Shown here in pieces: positions 26,862 to 37,355 of a stretch of 64,000 nt of DNA. The DNA is from Linnemannia hyalina (Eukaryota; Mortierellomycota; Mortierellomycetes; Mortierellales; Mortierellaceae). How positions within the stretch are numbered: the stretch's first letter is position 1; each line of letters begins with the position of its first letter. A program made the position numbers and the translations under genes. Below the pieces are notes generated by a model, which was given only the letters and a program-made list of their open reading frames with translations, did not search any database and was not told where the DNA came from. The stretch spans positions 1,240,001 through 1,304,000 of the forward strand of contig JAHRHY010000017.1 of the NCBI GenBank assembly GCA_019671135.1, given 5' to 3'.

Positions 26862-27178
26862 GTCAACAAGCACACGGTCCAATGAGGCACCTCAGCTTTG
26901 AAAGTTTCCAAGTCAGCGCATGCGGGTCAAGGGAGAGAAGCTACTCAAAGGAAAGTCGTGGTTTTGGCATGGCCCCCACGGCAATACGCCATGGTTGCAA
27001 GATGCGTTGTACAGAGAACAATTCTATGACAAGTCGACAAGCGCACGGTCCAGTGAGGCACCTCAGCTTTGAAAGTTCCCAAATCAGCGCATGGGGTCAA
27101 GGGAGAGAGGCTACTCAAAGGAAAATCGTGGTTTTGGCATGGCCCCCACGGCAAAACGCCATGGATGCAAGATGCATC
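26862..27178. repeat. Two tandem copies of a 171-bp unit
   Basis: The segment starting CAAGCACACGGTCCAATGAG (about 26,867) recurs at about 27,038 with roughly 90% identity. It replaces the expected 3' part of the Fanzor-like gene: the first bases after the conserved ITSKDDIV codons (about 27,180) already belong to this unit. Confidence 0.85.
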
Positions 27179-30100
27179 GACAATGTCATCCTTGCTTGTG
27201 ATCAAGTGACGAATCTCTTGAAGGTAGTAGTCGGTACCTCCCACCGTGGATGTCAATCTAGGCGGCAGACGGTTCTCTGGCAAACGTCGATAACGGACAT
27301 CCTGCAGTTCCCGCAGCTTAAAGGCGAGAAGCTGAACACGAAAACCGTCAGCCCTAATGGAACCCCTCAACAAGTATTCTCGTTCCTTGTATTGCGACGG
27401 GTCGAGGTGCTTGTCCTTGACAACATCCAGGTGAGCTCCAATCTCGTTCAATGGCAACAGCCTTATAGCTGCTCGGTGACCGGCCTTTTTCCGCTGGCGA
27501 CTCGTTAGACCATGGGGCGCCACGTCACAGACGAAGTGCTTTATGATGTACCCGGGCTCCTTCCCACCAATCCATGTTTCGAGATCGTTCGTAGACGTTA
27601 TTTGGGTATGGTCCTGGCGACCCAATTCTTCCAGTCTCTCCCTTAATGGCTTCCGTTTCCAAAAGAATAAGGCAAGCTCCCGTTCAGAGAAGCTTACAAA
27701 GGGTTGCTGGGAAGTGGTGAATGGCGCGATCTTGCGGCTGTTGTTGGTGAGCTTGTTAAGGTGGAGAAAGTTCTCAGCCGCTGAAATTTCCTCCCGAATC
27801 TGAATGTCGATGGTCGTTCCTAGAGTCCCCTTCTTCTTCATAACCTCGGCCTATAAAGAAGGAAAAAAACATTAATATTACATATTTTTTTTGGAAGACA
27901 AGTGTCTGAAAACATAGTGGCAACAGTACAAAAGCATCTCATTGCATACCTTCTTGTAGAGATCAAATGTCCCATTCCTGTATATTTTCTTGAGTTCCAA
28001 GGCCAATTGGCCAGAGACCGATCGCACCAAATTGTTGGGAGTAAAGGGCATTTGAACATCGATCTCGCCGCGCGACCGAGGTGGGTTGTACAACTTTCGG
28101 TCCACAAGCCAATCGATGAAGGTGTTGACGGTGGGGATGACTCCAATGTCCTTGGTATGAGATTCCACTGTTTTGTTCTTCATTTCGGGATAGTTTCCCG
28201 AATACAGAAACACGAGAAAGGACTGGAGAAAACGGACTTGTTCTCCTCCGTCTTTGTCATCGATGTCGCCGTTGTCCTCACCGCTCTTCGTCTCGCAATC
28301 ACCCTCATTCTCGCTATTGTCCTCTTCGGGCTTGATACGTTCGCAGAGGTGGTCAAGAATCCTGCGCTCGTCATCCGATATGGCATCTCTCCTAGCCTCG
28401 GCCAGCTTCCTGACCAGATCTGCCTCGGTGATAGATTCCGTAGTGGACCGAAGCTTGTTTATGAACCTCAATTCGGCAGCATCCATCTCCTTGTTCATGG
28501 TCTCGACAAACTGACCTACGAGTCGCTGGGTCTCCCGTTTGACACCAGCTGAAAGACGAGGAGCCTCCTGAAGACACTCCACCACGAGCCGCTGTAGATC
28601 AGGGCGGTCCAAGACGGGCGTCGAAGGTGCGGGCGTTGCTGTGGTTGGCTTGGAGGAGACAGGCGTGGGCGATGGGGTAAAAACCCTTTTGGTGTTGGCG
28701 GCCAGCGTTCCAGTCTCGAGTGTCACTGTTGAATGGTACCATGCCATAGAACGCACTAGTCCATTCTTGCCCTTTGTACCTCGTGGCTTCTTGGTGATAG
28801 TGGAGTCCTTTTCCGCCTTGGCCTTGGATTTGTTGTCGGAGGGCTGATTGGTGGTTGTTGTAGGACGTTCCTTGTAGTGTTTTAGAACAAACTGCTTCAT
28901 TTTCGGCGGAGGATCATGTACCGTTTTCCCGGTTCTTTCTTTGAACGAGAATCGGGCTCGGTTCCGGGGTATTCTGGTCCTGTTGAGAGCTGGATGACCG
29001 TCGTCTTGTTAGGCTGTAACGGAGGGTGTGTCGTGTTCCTGTGGGACAGGGGCTGCTTGTGGCGGGGGCGATTCTGAGACCAGAATGGGTGACTCCACAG
29101 TTCTGTACCGATTGAAAGACTGAGGCTTCCGCACTCGAACGATGTTCTCCTGGGGGGACCTACTTACATCAAGCGAAAATAATAGCTGGTAAGATACACA
29201 ATTCGATATGATGCTCGATACGATGCGAACAAAAACTAATTACACATATCAAATTACCTAGATATAGTTCCTCGAGGCTGCTTCCTGAGATTGTATCTCT
29301 GCATGAGATCCTCGAAACGCTGCCGGCACGCATCAAAGACAACCTGAGAGGGCATCTGAAAAACCACAGGTTCGATCCGGGTCTGCAGCTGGTCGATAAA
29401 CACTCGCATGGAGGCCTCAAAGGTTCCCTGCTGCGTGTTCCTTGTTACGACTTTGCCATCCCGTAGGTACGCCGACACGATGTCTCGAACAACTATTTCA
29501 AAAGAGAAAAGGTAGAGATTAGACTCTAACATAAAGAGGTTGTGAAAAGTTCCAAATAAAAGTCATTCTTGACAAAGCTGTACCTGATTTGTGTCCAATG
29601 GCCTTGATGATAGAATAGTTGGATGCCGGACCAAGGGAGTAAATGTTCCTTTGGTAGTCATTTCTAGCGACGATGGCCAGTGCAGTTAGCTGGTTCCTGC
29701 TGAATTCGATAGTCTTGAGGACGTCCGGCATAGAGTAGACAAGAATGAGACCCTGGGAGACAGGTGTTTGGACAGATGCATTGGCCATCATGTCGCTGTC
29801 CGAGGAGATTACAATGTCTTCCGGCTGGGCATCCTGCGCGATAGCAACATCTGCCTCCGTATTGCAAAGTATAACAGTCCAGCCGACACCTCTCATGTAC
29901 TCCGCAAAGTGTTGCCGACTAGGCAAGGACCAATAGAACGCCGAAACAAGGTTCTTCCGGATGGCTATAAAGTGCTGTTTTCTGATCCTGAGATCCGCCT
30001 CCATTCGGGTTTCGAAAGTTTCCACGTCTGTCGAAAGATGGTCCAATGCCTTCATTCGGGCCGCTTCTCGAACTTGAGCCGTACTCGCCTTCTCTACTGG

Positions 30101-30349
30101 CTGTGGACCATCGAGGTACAGCATCATATTGAGATGATTCCCCAATCGTTCTACTTCTTTTTGAAGCATTCTATTGGCGACGTCCTGAGGATGACTGGAG
30201 TAGGCGTAACCGATGGTGCGAAAACTTGTACTGAGGACATCAAAACGGCGTCGTCCGGTAGTTGTGATGCTGACGAGTATGGTGTGGTACAGCAAGACAG
30301 GGTTGTACCCCTTCCTGCGAATGAAAGGGAACCAGTCAAAGAGTCCCAT
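26945..30349 (-). pseudogene. XPG-like nuclease fused to Fanzor-type protein (stop-interrupted, 3'-truncated)
   Basis: Part one has exons 30349-29584, 29492-29258 and 29162-29009 (384 residues). MGLFDWFPFIRRKG matches the XPG/FEN1 N-terminus. YLDG (D80), TEADVAIA (E165, D167) and ISSDSDMM (D184, D186) match the XPG-I acidic cluster. The TAA at 29011-29009 is followed in the same frame by open sequence leading into part two with no shift, so the two parts look like one ancestral frame. Part two has exons 28900 (or earlier)-27950 and 27850-26945. It carries the helical N-terminal region of a Fanzor-type protein and ends with RYRRLPENRLPPRLTSTVGG, just before the RuvC-I motif. The last ~80 codons are read from the 171-bp repeat. 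As two separate genes, part two would start at 28900 and have 618 residues. Confidence 0.7.
29009..29011 (-). other. In-frame TAA separating XPG-like and Fanzor-like halves
   Basis: The frame of the third XPG-like exon continues without any other stop from this TAA through about 108 bp into the ATG at 28900. A single nonsense change would therefore explain the split. Confidence 0.75.
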
Positions 30350-30929
30350 GATGTTGGGCCATGTGCTTTTGGGGTCGGAAGAAAAGAATGTTTGATGAGG
30401 ATAGTCGGTTTTGCTGAAGTAGTAAAAGTAGGAAAATTGAGCTTTGAGTGTGTCATTTATGTGGAGAGCAGTCCAGAGAAAGTGTCAATTGACAGTTAAT
30501 TTCGATCCATGTTAGGAAAGACCCATAGATTCTTTCAGCCAATAAGAGAATTATGGCGTCCATTGTCCTGCACCTGTAACTTCGGTGACGTAGTTCTCGC
30601 GCCCATTGCCTTGTTTCCTGGATTGTCCTGTTACCTCTCCAAAAAACCACCCTCCCTCGCCACCCTTTCTCGCAATCATCCTCACCATTACACGTACTTT
30701 TACTCTTTCCTACCCACCACCTCCCTCATCATCTTTTCTCGCAATCATCCTCACATCACGCGAGTTTTGCTCTCTCCTCTTTTTCATAATTCTAAGTCAT
30801 AGCAACTCTCATCGAACCCGCTTGCGTGAAGGTACAGTGTTGTACTTAGTCTCAATGGTCCCATTTGGGTATCCGTGTTGGCGGACAAGGATGAATGTGT
30901 ATAGACAGGGACGGATGTTTCAACGTTTA
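30350..30929. other. Short unassigned region upstream of XPG-like gene
   Basis: It contains a C/T-rich stretch with two copies of the phrase TTTCTCGCAATCATCCTCAC about 64 bp apart (30,665-30,760). No gene was recognised. Confidence 0.4.
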
Positions 30930-31646
30930 CCTCTACAACTTGTTTTGTTCACTGTCGCGCATCTGATGCCTCTCAAGTGTGGAGCAGAGCGGGGAGTTAT
31001 TCTTTTTATTATGTATTTTACTCCTTTCGTGCTTGTGAGGGTAGGATCAGGAGCCGTGTTGGCTGTTCAAGTATGGAGCAGAGCGGGGAATTATTCTTTT
31101 ATTACGTTTTTTACTCCTCTCGTGCTTGTGAGGGTGGGATCAGCAGCCGTGTTGGCTGTTCATCAATACGGGTACGGACTTTCAGCCTCTGCCAGGAGTC
31201 TCTCTGCAACTGGTTATGTTCACTGTCGCGCATCTGATGCCTCTCAAGTATGGAGCAGAGCGGGGAGTTATTCTTTTTATTATGTATTTTACTCCTTTCG
31301 TGCGTGTGAGGGTAGGATCAGGAGTCGTGTTGGCTGTTCAAGTATGGAGCAGAGCGGGGAATTATTCTTTTATTACGTTTTTTACTCCTCTCGTGCTTGT
31401 GAGGGTGGGATCAGCAGCCGTGTTGGCTGTTCATCAATACGGGTACGGACTTTCAGCCTCTGCCAGGAGTCTCTCTGCAACTGGTTATGTTCACTGTCGC
31501 GCATCTGATGCCTCTCAAGTATGGAGCAGAGCGGGGAGTTATTCTTTTTATTGTGTATTTTACTCCTTTCGTGCGTGTGAGGGTAGGATCAGGAGCCGTG
31601 TTGGCTGTTCAAGTATGGAGCAGAGCGGGGAATTATTCTTTTATTA
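30930..31646. repeat. 271-bp tandem satellite, about 2.6 units
   Basis: The phrase TTCACTGTCGCGCATCTGAT occurs at 30,948, 31,219 and 31,490, exactly 271 bp apart. Each unit contains two related sub-repeats of about 94 bp that start at GGAGCAGAGCGGGGA. Long frames cross the array in more than one phase because 271 is not divisible by three and the unit is stop-poor; I do not call them genes. Confidence 0.92.
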
Positions 31647-34560: not shown

Positions 34561-37355
34561 TTAAACATAAAATGGGTCTAAAATATCTAAAATAGGAAAA
34601 CCTATGCTAAGGCGTGGCCTGGAACGTCTGTCATGCATCCAGGGATAGTTCCCATCACTGTCTTGGAGCTGGAGGTAGAGTGGCCGCTGTTGCTCGAGCG
34701 AGTGTCCTCGAATGGCATTACACATGTTGTGGCCGGCCATGATGTCGCGGTGCATGTACTTTTGACACTTTGAACAATACAGTCGGCGGAGGTCAACTTG
34801 GCCAACGAACTCTCTACATGTCGGGCATTTCTTCGAAGTATAATACTCATTAACGCCAACGACGATATAGCAAGAGATCGGGCCTGAAAAATAAGGGGTG
34901 TAAAGAGCAAAAAAAAACAATTAATAAGCGTCCCTTTCAGCGTCAGGAGGAAAGTTTGGCTGTAATTTACACCTACTTTTTGAACGAAGTATGACTGGAA
35001 AGACTCATGCAAAGATGATAATCTAATCTTGGAGGAGAACTCCAAGACTCACGCCTATTACGACCTTGTTGTCCTCGTCTCTCTTGGCCCCTGTCGATCC
35101 TCCAACAAGCTGTAAAAGACGATCGGCGATCAATCTATACTCCTCTGCTCGAGTCTTCCTAGCGTTCCACCTGTGCTTCTTCAGGACCACACTGCCATAG
35201 AACGAATCGAGATGGCCCTCCACTTCCCGCTCACTCTGAATGTAAAGTGCCGGACAAAAATGATCACTCTTTTTGTGAATTCAGCTTTTGTTTTGAAATG
35301 CTCATTCACCAATGTTCCGATTAGCCCCCAGGTTCCTGTCGTACATTCTCTTGATTCGTAACCTCTTTCATCACCACTTGTCTTTTTCTGCATGAACCGG
35401 CATCGACTCTTCGTCGGAATTGAAATGCCCCATCTCAATTGATCATTTTTGTCATTTGCGATTTATCTGTAGAAAGTTTATTGAGCTTGTGGGATTAAAA
35501 AACACAGATTGTTCCGTGCTAAGCCCATGTAAAATTTTACATAGAGATCACACGCCACATATGGCAAATGACAAAAATGATCAATTGAGATGGGGCATTT
35601 CAATTCCGACGAAGAGTCGATGCCGGTTCATGCAGAAAAAGACAAGTGGTGATGAAAGAGGTTACGAATCAAGAGAATGCACGACAGGAACCTGGGGGTT
35701 AATCGGAACATTGGTGAATGAGCATTTCAAAACAAAAGCTGAATTCACAAAAAGAGTGATAATTTTTGTCCAGCACTTTAATTGCTGATACTCGCTTCCG
35801 GGCCACGGCGAGGAGGTAGATCGGTCTCAATTTGACTGATGGAAGGTCCTCCCTCAATTGTCTGCCCTTTCCTACGCTCCAGCCATCATCTATGCTTGAG
35901 GGTAGGTTGGTAGACAGCCTTCTGCTTGACGGCCAAGTTGAAAAACTTGGGCAACGGTTCCTCGGCCTGTTCATCCTCCTTTGCCTCAGTACTCGACTGA
36001 GGCGACTCCATGGTAGTGGCGCCAGGCTCTTGTCCTTGATTGACATTCAGCTGCTCGCGAGTGGGTAGAATCACATTCGCTTCAACGACAAATGCTTGGC
36101 CCAAGTCAATGCCGAGGATGTTGATATTCTTGGGATCGCAACTCCAGAGCTGGGTGAGATCCTGCTTGGCCGAAACGACATTCCTGATCTCCGTCAAAAA
36201 ATAATCCGTGCCGCCAACGGTGGATGTTAGTCGAGAAGGCAGCTTCTCCGCGGGTAGTCGTCTGTACTTGACCGAGTGGAGCTCATTCAACTTGAAAGCA
36301 AGCACTTGGAGTCGGAACACGTCTGTCCGAATCGATCCACGCAGAACATAGCCTTTCTCGGCGTATGCAGTAGGCTCAAAGTCATCGGCTCGAATATTCT
36401 GGAGATGACTCTTCATCTCCTTCGAAGGCATCAGGAAGGTCGATCTGGAGTAGTTTTTGAGCTTTTTCCGTTGATCCGCTGAGTACCGGCCAATATCGGT
36501 GAGTAGCCTCGTGATGAGAAAACCGGGTGTTGTTGTTGACAGCCATTCGCCAACATCGGTCTGCGAGAGTTGCTCGGGATACTCGATAGTTGAAAAGTCC
36601 AGGTTGGCGTACGACTGAAGCACAGGCCTCAAGACAGGGTGCTGCCAGAAGATCTTGGTTAGATCCAGCTCTGACAAAGTAATAAACTTGACATCGAAAG
36701 GCGATATTGGCACCAATGAGCGACGGCTCCCGCAGGCCCTGTTCAAGAGTATGAAATTCTCTATCGCAGATCTTTGGGGCGCAATGTAATCTCTCGCTTC
36801 TTGAGGCAGAACCTTCTTGTGCTTTAGGACTTCGATCTATTGTTTTTGAAAGAAAAGAATTGTGTTAACTATTGATCCATGTTAAAAACTAATGTCTGAA
36901 TAGAAGTTACAGCTTTCAACTCTTTTTTACCTTATTGCAAAGATCGATCGCTCCATTCCTGTAGTGCATTTTTAACTCGACGGACAACTGCAAGGCGGCA
37001 GACCTCAAAAATGAAGATCCGGCATAATACTCTGTGCTCATACCCTCAGTAAAGATGGGTAAGAACTCCTGCGCACGTTCGATGAAGCTTCGAACATGCA
37101 ACCCCATCCCTTCTTTTATGGGAAGCTTGGTGGAATGTATGGCTGTAAGGAGCGACCGCAGAAACGATAATGCCTCGTTTTTCTTGCCGATACTGTCGCT
37201 GAGTTCCTCGAGACTTTTGGGCTTGTCGGGCTCTTGGTCTGTTCCCTCCTTGCTGGGTTCGACCAAATCCTTGTTGGAAAAGGCAGGGCAAAGAATATTG
37301 AGAAGTCTCCGGTCGACTTCACTAAGAATCTTGGCATCGGTGGTCCCCTTGCCAT
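34561..37355 (-). pseudogene. Fanzor (eukaryotic TnpB-like) nuclease relic with RuvC and zinc-finger motifs
   Basis: Reading right to left: the helical N-terminal domain (from about 37,355; exon end TGCAATAAG near 36,930), then an exon from about 36,838 to the MITE. That exon carries RYRRLPAEKLPSRLTSTVGG and the RuvC-I motif NINILGIDLGQAF. After the 534-bp insert the frame resumes (KKHRWNARKTRAEEYR, then DDE-independent NKVVIGVSLG near 35,050), then FSSKIRLSSLHESFQSYF. The last part is VGVNEYYTSKKCPTC, YCSKCQKYMHRDIMAGHN and the stop at 34561. The CxxC...CxxC finger followed by a RuvC-III Asp is the TnpB/Fanzor signature. Breaks: no XPG-like half (5' cut at the MULE edge), the MITE, an apparent 2-nt loss near 35,045 and a 1-nt loss near 34,875. 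The region from the first to last motif aligns closely with the copy at 26945-28900. Confidence 0.78.
35245..35778. mobile_element. 534-bp foldback MITE with ~217-bp inverted arms and TA target duplication
   Basis: The left arm (35,245-35,459) and right arm (35,566-35,778) are near-perfect reverse complements, separated by about 106 bp. The ends read AAGTGCYGGACAAAAATKATC and are flanked by TA on both sides (35,243-35,244 and 35,779-35,780), as in Tc1/mariner-type insertions. It carries no transposase. It sits inside the Fanzor-like frame; counting one TA, the flanking frame stays open across the insertion site. Confidence 0.9.

Follow-up and report, generated by a model that had tools for sequence, protein, structure and literature searches.

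The genome of the fungus Linnemannia hyalina (Mortierellomycota; Mortierellaceae) holds, within a 64,000-nucleotide stretch of contig JAHRHY010000017.1 (positions 1,240,001 to 1,304,000 of the forward strand, assembly GCA_019671135.1; hereafter the window, whose numbering is used below), a locus that raises the question of whether two nucleases of different kinds can be made as one protein. On the minus strand, an open reading frame (ORF) for an XPG-like nuclease (29519-30349) is followed in the same frame by two ORFs for the N-terminal region of a Fanzor, the eukaryotic relative of TnpB (27878-29008 and 26945-27850). A sequence-only reading of the window had described this arrangement, whose parts lie where it placed them, as an XPG/FEN1-like nuclease fused in frame to a Fanzor. 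On the basis of sequence, deposited annotation and fold prediction, it is highly probable that the gene family represented here encodes one protein joining an XPG-like nuclease to a Fanzor, and the proposed fusion is supported in intact relatives, after splicing.

Intact relatives and the broken window copy

Open copies of the gene elsewhere in the L. hyalina genome splice to proteins of 1295-1351 amino acids that bear both catalytic sites. Models that are open without repair were obtained in three groups of copies (D_C13, 1348 amino acids; C_C1, 1295; F_C4, 1351), with GT..AG introns placed by eye at predicted splice sites, and their pairwise identities are 36.0, 21.5 and 21.1%. The last two introns, both in the Fanzor half, fall in the same alignment column and in phase 0 in groups D, C and F, while the intron at the border between the XPG-like part and the linker is in phase 2 in D and C, where its place agrees to within 2 columns. 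A post-XPG intron at one place in all three groups was considered and, when checked in the alignment, held for D and C and failed for F. The Fanzor-side exon of groups E and F has its first Met only once the Fanzor fold has begun, and the Fanzor half would there depend on the upstream exons; a separate start of this half is possible in groups D and C. The donor of the post-XPG phase-2 intron starts GTAA in D, C and F (L010, L009, L069 and others), so that an unspliced transcript would end at once in TAA, and an XPG-only protein made from such a transcript, as a regulated switch, is possible.

Genome-wide searches with the two ends of the window copy gave 96 (XPG) and 90 (Fanzor) matches. At 68 of the 83 XPG-like loci of L. 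hyalina, a Fanzor piece follows on the same strand at a distance of up to 3.5 kb; among 100 Fanzor loci, by comparison, an XPG piece lies downstream at 4 and on the opposite strand at 1, and on these orientation counts chance adjacency of two ORFs was rejected. The pairing count drew on all 96 XPG matches and 64 of the 90 Fanzor matches from the first searches, together with 5 of 68 XPG matches (the rest lying at the same places), 42 of 64 Fanzor matches and 39 of 67 piggyBac matches from further searches. Matches outside the count appear to be parts of loci already listed, or else some 17 further small Fanzor fragments without XPG upstream, and counting these fragments would give 68 of about 117 Fanzor loci. 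These own-genome searches score the best candidates only, so that the counts are lower bounds. Distances among the XPG halves and among the Fanzor halves are correlated (r 0.80, reached in 0 of 2000 permutations; 38 of 45 sequences).

Single polypeptides carrying both PF00867 and PF07282 are on deposit from Podila, Linnemannia gamsii and Benniella (P0004, P0005, P0024). Together with the open spliced models of three groups, these speak against intact homologues always being two genes with their own starts, the outcome that the sequence-only reading had named as fatal to a fusion. Its mention of large proteins of this kind in Mortierellomycetes also agrees with the searches: all 70 distinct relatives found in three protein searches, many of which span only part of the fusion, carry Mortierellaceae genus names (Mortierella, Linnemannia, Haplosporangium, Podila, Entomortierella, Dissophora, Benniella, Actinomortierella and Gryganskiella). 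The lineage of three species was checked and is Mortierellaceae, and we take the remaining species to belong there too; each search scored only about 8000 candidates sharing most words, so that relatives outside the family are possible. A 939-amino-acid protein of Mortierella alpina deposited as 'Rad2 nuclease' (P0061) is a family relative over 74% of the query and is probably a partly annotated member of the fusion family. No description of a Fanzor-XPG pairing, or of a Fanzor in Mortierella, was found in the literature searched, most subscription papers lying outside it, and for TnpB with XPG only work on Cas12a surfaced. The fused protein therefore appears undescribed; its sequences are already public, and databases show both domains side by side.

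The window copy belongs to group D and is a broken example of a five-exon gene type, with exons 1-3 and the beginning of exon 4 surviving (27182-30575, minus strand, as are the exons and terminal repeat given here). The open copy at C13:857940-862370 (D_C13), about 95% identical, served as its reference. The window copy begins with a 5′ terminal inverted repeat (TIR) of the GGTGCAGGACAATGGACGCCATAATT class (30546..30575); the same sequence opens the related C13, C48 and C22 copies and is inverted at their right ends. Exon 1 (29585..30349) encodes the XPG/FEN1/EXO1-like nuclease domain (tblastn 94.6% to D_C13 residues 1-258) and exon 2 (29257..29493) the end of that domain in another reading frame (97.5% to residues 259-337). 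Exon 3 (27950..29167) encodes the linker and the start of the Fanzor WED/REC region, and what is left of exon 4 (27182..27850) further Fanzor REC/WED sequence, the two exons jointly matching D_C13 residues 335-963 at 90.8%. The match stops at residue 963 of 1348, before the RuvC-I aspartate at residue 981, and the RuvC domain and zinc ribbon are therefore missing. Because it is cut off before RuvC, the window copy is, on its sequence, a dead relic unable to make a Fanzor nuclease. A 170-bp tandem repeat of 1.8 units (26866..27175; TRF) stands in place of the RuvC part.

The two halves had been read across a 'lone TAA'. The frame has 11 stops before the last, of which seven lie in three predicted introns, three in exon 2 and one in exon 3, the latter being a nonsense TAA (29009..29011) at a position where the C13 copy is open; this single exonic nonsense codon is probably the one meant. 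In the range first proposed (26945..30349), the last part of about 240 nt (26945-27181) is not Fanzor sequence, and the element extends to about 30575. Among deposited genes, KI688_004861 (P0008, 96% identical) is probably that of the window.

Two further features lie nearby. A 271-bp tandem repeat of 2.6 units that are 98% alike is found just upstream of the broken element (30931-31646), and a second family member, 5′-truncated and retaining a Fanzor half with zinc ribbon, lies at 34612..37326 on the minus strand. By tblastn with C_C1, this relative matches at 36836-35784 (63%), 37314-36928 (47%) and 35250-34612 (57%), no XPG match being found there; at up to 63% amino acid identity, its sequence is close to group C.

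The two nuclease halves

The XPG-like half is, by prediction, a 5′ nuclease domain of the Rad2/XPG/FEN1/EXO1 type. The AlphaFold2 model of the window ORF (pLDDT 76.7) matches EXO1/FEN1/XPG-type nucleases in a Foldseek search of the PDB (E 1.3e-7, probability 1.00), and in one AlphaFold model of a fused relative (P0020) residues 1-248 match EXO1 and residues 418-1111 match Fanzor1. The XPG/EXO1 fold was thus returned where its absence would have spoken against the fusion. A profile of A1 matches RAD2 at 3.4e-8. Pfam alone was rejected as proof of the domain, since neither the window ORF nor the spliced models reach its cut-off, and profile, fold and residue tests were used. The half resembles Rad2, XPG, FEN1 and EXO1 in its fold, in its acidic sites (D34, D86, D160, D179, D181 and D233, retained in 85-97% of aligned sequences), in a FEN1-type gateway pair at the same spacing (K93/R100, also in 85-97%) and in the helix-two-turn-helix (H2TH) Gly, which is retained in 34 of 41. 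It differs from them in its low identity to solved members (about 14-18%), in being joined to a Fanzor and in one acidic position, E158, which across 38 sequences is Glu in 27, Gln in a subgroup of 10 and Asp in 1. The ratio of non-synonymous to synonymous substitution rates (dN/dS) is low in both halves, with values of 0.11-0.14 bearing on the XPG-like one. Academ-type transposons carry XPG nucleases, and an Academ-type origin of the domain was considered and set aside, the literature searched yielding nothing useful.

The intact Fanzor half is predicted from sequence and modelling to be a complete Fanzor1, with WED/REC, RuvC and TNB zinc ribbon. PF07282 is matched at E 1e-14 to 1e-10 in the three spliced models, the RuvC catalytic Asp, Glu and Asp and the C4 TNB zinc ribbon are present in the family by residue counts, and the Fanzor fold (WED/REC/RuvC/TNB), also tested for in the family, is matched from P0020 residue 418, corresponding to about residue 477 of D_C13. 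Phage relatives of the Fanzor piece were sought and none were found. Fanzors are described as proteins of 400-700 amino acids (PMC10432273); compared with Fanzor1 proteins such as SpuFz1, GtFz1 and PpFz1, the fusion is about 1300 amino acids long and has an N-terminal Rad2-family nuclease. The known extra domain of PpFz1, as given in the available text, is a RuvC insertion that binds cyclophilin and not a nuclease (PMC11423790).

Carriage on transposons and the right ends

The sequences of the elements indicate that DNA transposons of at least two kinds carry the fused gene. Elements of groups E and G include a gene for a piggyBac-type transposase (PF13843, DDE_Tnp_1_7) that lies upstream and points the same way, an arrangement seen at 28 of the 83 XPG loci of the genome; the transposase gene is truncated in E, and in G it has stop-free open frames of 591-616 amino acids in 4 of 6 copies and is split in the other two. 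Group E comprises 12 copies of 6.6-7.0 kb with flanks that differ by eye, of which those on C1 and C6 are 99.5% alike across 6.6 kb; the ends of the other copies match at 93-100%, one right end being split. At least 10 copies in group F have a stop-free Fanzor exon that is 100% (rounded) identical. The ends are TA-TCCC...GGGA-TA in 12/12 group E and 6/6 group G copies (two G copies with identical flanks), and, unlike in piggyBac, a TTAA target duplication was seen in 0/12 E and 0/6 G copies. In all 12 group E copies a T precedes the left TA. We infer a TA duplication for these groups from 18 filled sites (two with shared flanks); a search for the empty site of one group E insertion, made with its joined flanks, matched only the filled site. 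At C1:1874500-1883500 (L070/L099/L100), a piggyBac-type transposase gene and an XPG-Fanzor gene stand in tandem in one element with ends TATCCC...GGGATA and a predicted terminal hairpin with a GCAA loop.

Copies of groups A, B and D are about 4.6-4.8 kb long and have 16-nt TIRs of the GGGTGCAGGACAATGG type. Among four copies readable at both ends, exact 8-bp duplications stand beside the TIRs at C13 (ATTTGCAT) and C22 (AGGCATCC), and none was found at C4 and C48. By these TIRs and the 8-bp duplication (criterion 8-9 bp), the three groups would be a TIR transposon of MULE or hAT type; in the copies read, no ORF was recognisable by eye as a transposase of their own, and no MULE or hAT profile was searched. 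In group C the terminal repeat was seen at the right end only. At C44:133471 (L033), a group B copy is interrupted just after its Fanzor exon 4 by a group A element with a truncated left end, so that this nested insertion gave no usable target duplication.

Fanzor1 genes on unrelated DNA transposons have been described before, on Mariner, Sola, IS4, Helitron and MuDR elements and also in Rhizopus, Phycomyces and Mucor (PMC3627910). The present elements are alike in this respect; in the accessible part of that 2013 account by Bao and Jurka, piggyBac is not among the hosts named and neither an XPG domain nor a fusion is mentioned (PMC3627910).

A downstream structured non-coding RNA had been suggested as a further check. 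Single-sequence folds from the stop codon to the right end point towards one in most groups, with z -6.11 (-53 kcal/mol) in D, -4.65 in A, -3.09 in B, -2.34 in C, -3.60 in F, -2.54 in G and only -1.07 in E (7 sequences in all). Covariation, on the other hand, lends no support, nor did RNAalifold return a supported structure for 16 right ends. Directly behind the stop codon stands a hairpin that looks compensated by eye (GCGTG/CACGC, GGGTG/CACCC, GTGTG/CACAC), its arms being out of register in the MAFFT alignment. A right-end guide RNA is plausible on these sequences, and inverted repeats bound by a transposase could also explain the folds.

The right ends of groups E, F and G (L071, L073 and copies) fold as a hairpin, whose outer stem in E and G (TATCC/GGGATA) repeats the left terminus and whose inner stems differ, with a UACG loop in E and a GCAA loop in G. 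The right ends of groups A-D share a conserved CTTCGGTGACGTAATT box (e.g. L039, L046, L049), which is tandem-repeated in group C and recurs outside the left end of the window copy.

Possible roles of the joined nucleases

The tentative account that we favour, rating it a little short of an even chance, is an RNA-guided cut at the vacated site combined with built-in 5′ end processing that favours recombination-based re-copying of the element. A break made by TnpB at the sister chromosome lets homologous recombination copy the insertion sequence, and this has been proposed for Fanzors as well (PMC10432273). SpuFz1 cuts leave 5′ overhangs, and other Fanzors are described as leaving blunt, mixed or 3′-overhang ends (PMC11423790, PMC10432273). 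In the fused protein, the Fanzor half would bind an RNA from the element's right end and the flanking host sequence, as proposed for TnpB; after the transposase had excised the element, it would cut the vacated site, or the empty site on the sister or the other allele. EXO1-type nucleases resect 5′ strands, and the fused EXO1/FEN1-like half would degrade or trim the 5′ strands at the Fanzor cut, leaving ends ill suited to end joining and well suited to homologous recombination, by which the transposon would be copied back. The broader proposal that this is a natural break-and-resect machine in one protein, steering repair to homologous recombination on behalf of two or more unrelated types of transposon within a single fungal class, is more doubtful, at something like one chance in three.

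Several observations weigh against this account or the fusion on which it builds. The case, recombination-based copying included, is built on sequence and prediction, down to the splice sites. None of five predicted pairs (0/5) covaries across 12 right ends (RNAalifold). An upstream XPG match is missing at 32 of the 100 Fanzor loci, group F has its phase-2 intron after the XPG part at a place out of line with D and C, the Fanzor-fold exon of D and C contains a Met ahead of the fold, and reading on into the post-XPG intron meets an immediate stop in all three models (D, C and F). Within the nuclease itself, Gln replaces E158 in 10/38 sequences, Pfam XPG_I is under cut-off in the three spliced models (and above it in three other family members), and the low dN/dS comes with high dS (1.7-3.1), three further comparisons being saturated.

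Among the alternatives, the one that survives best, at perhaps one chance in five, is that the XPG-like half trims flaps, hairpins or gaps during transposition, independently of guided cutting, with the Fanzor supplying nearby DNA binding or cutting. Retained FEN/EXO1 catalytic and gateway residues would suit such a role, as would right ends able to form long hairpins and the accessory nucleases carried by other transposons. In the groups read, however, the nuclease is joined to the Fanzor even beside a separate piggyBac transposase gene. Two deposited proteins, P0044 and P0046, do run a transposase remnant into the fusion, which is probably an annotation effect.

It is unlikely that the half matures the 5′ end of a guide RNA and does not act on DNA ends. 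The linker could bring the nuclease near the guide scaffold and the right ends of most groups fold well as RNA, but in sequence and in fold the half comes closest to the DNA nucleases RAD2, FEN1 and EXO1, and the FEN1-type gateway Lys/Arg and, in most sequences, the H2TH Gly are kept. Slightly less probable again is a non-catalytic, DNA-binding adaptor, a role to which the Gln at E158 in a subgroup would point, whereas the retention of the other acidic residues and of K93/R100, with low dN/dS, argues against it. Least probable, and very unlikely, are two adjoining and separately translated products (with their own starts, or XPG-only by intron retention) or an annotation artefact: the many in-frame stops and frame change of the window copy, the Met in D and C and the intronic stop of the three models would allow them, but open spliced models in three groups, the lack of a usable Met in E and F, the border intron shared in phase and place by D and C, the same order at most loci, the correlated divergence of the halves and fused proteins deposited for several genera all stand against them.

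The biological role of Fanzors is stated to be unknown in the available portion of one report (PMC10432273). On present sequences, an active-looking EXO1/FEN1-type nuclease long kept in a Fanzor lineage points to the processing of guided breaks as a role, and the two catalytic sites could be mutated separately, giving a direct test of it. Fusions of Cas9 to an exonuclease have been tried in a yeast as a means of raising recombination (PMC9450370); like these, the protein would pair a programmable cutter with an end-resecting nuclease favouring recombination, but whereas they are man-made, the fusion here is natural and common to diverged groups. If the favoured account of guided cutting with built-in end processing is true, the family would offer a programmable nuclease that already contains its own resection module, as has been attempted with Cas9, and elements that hold both a Fanzor and a piggyBac-type transposase would make the cut-and-copy model testable in a eukaryote.
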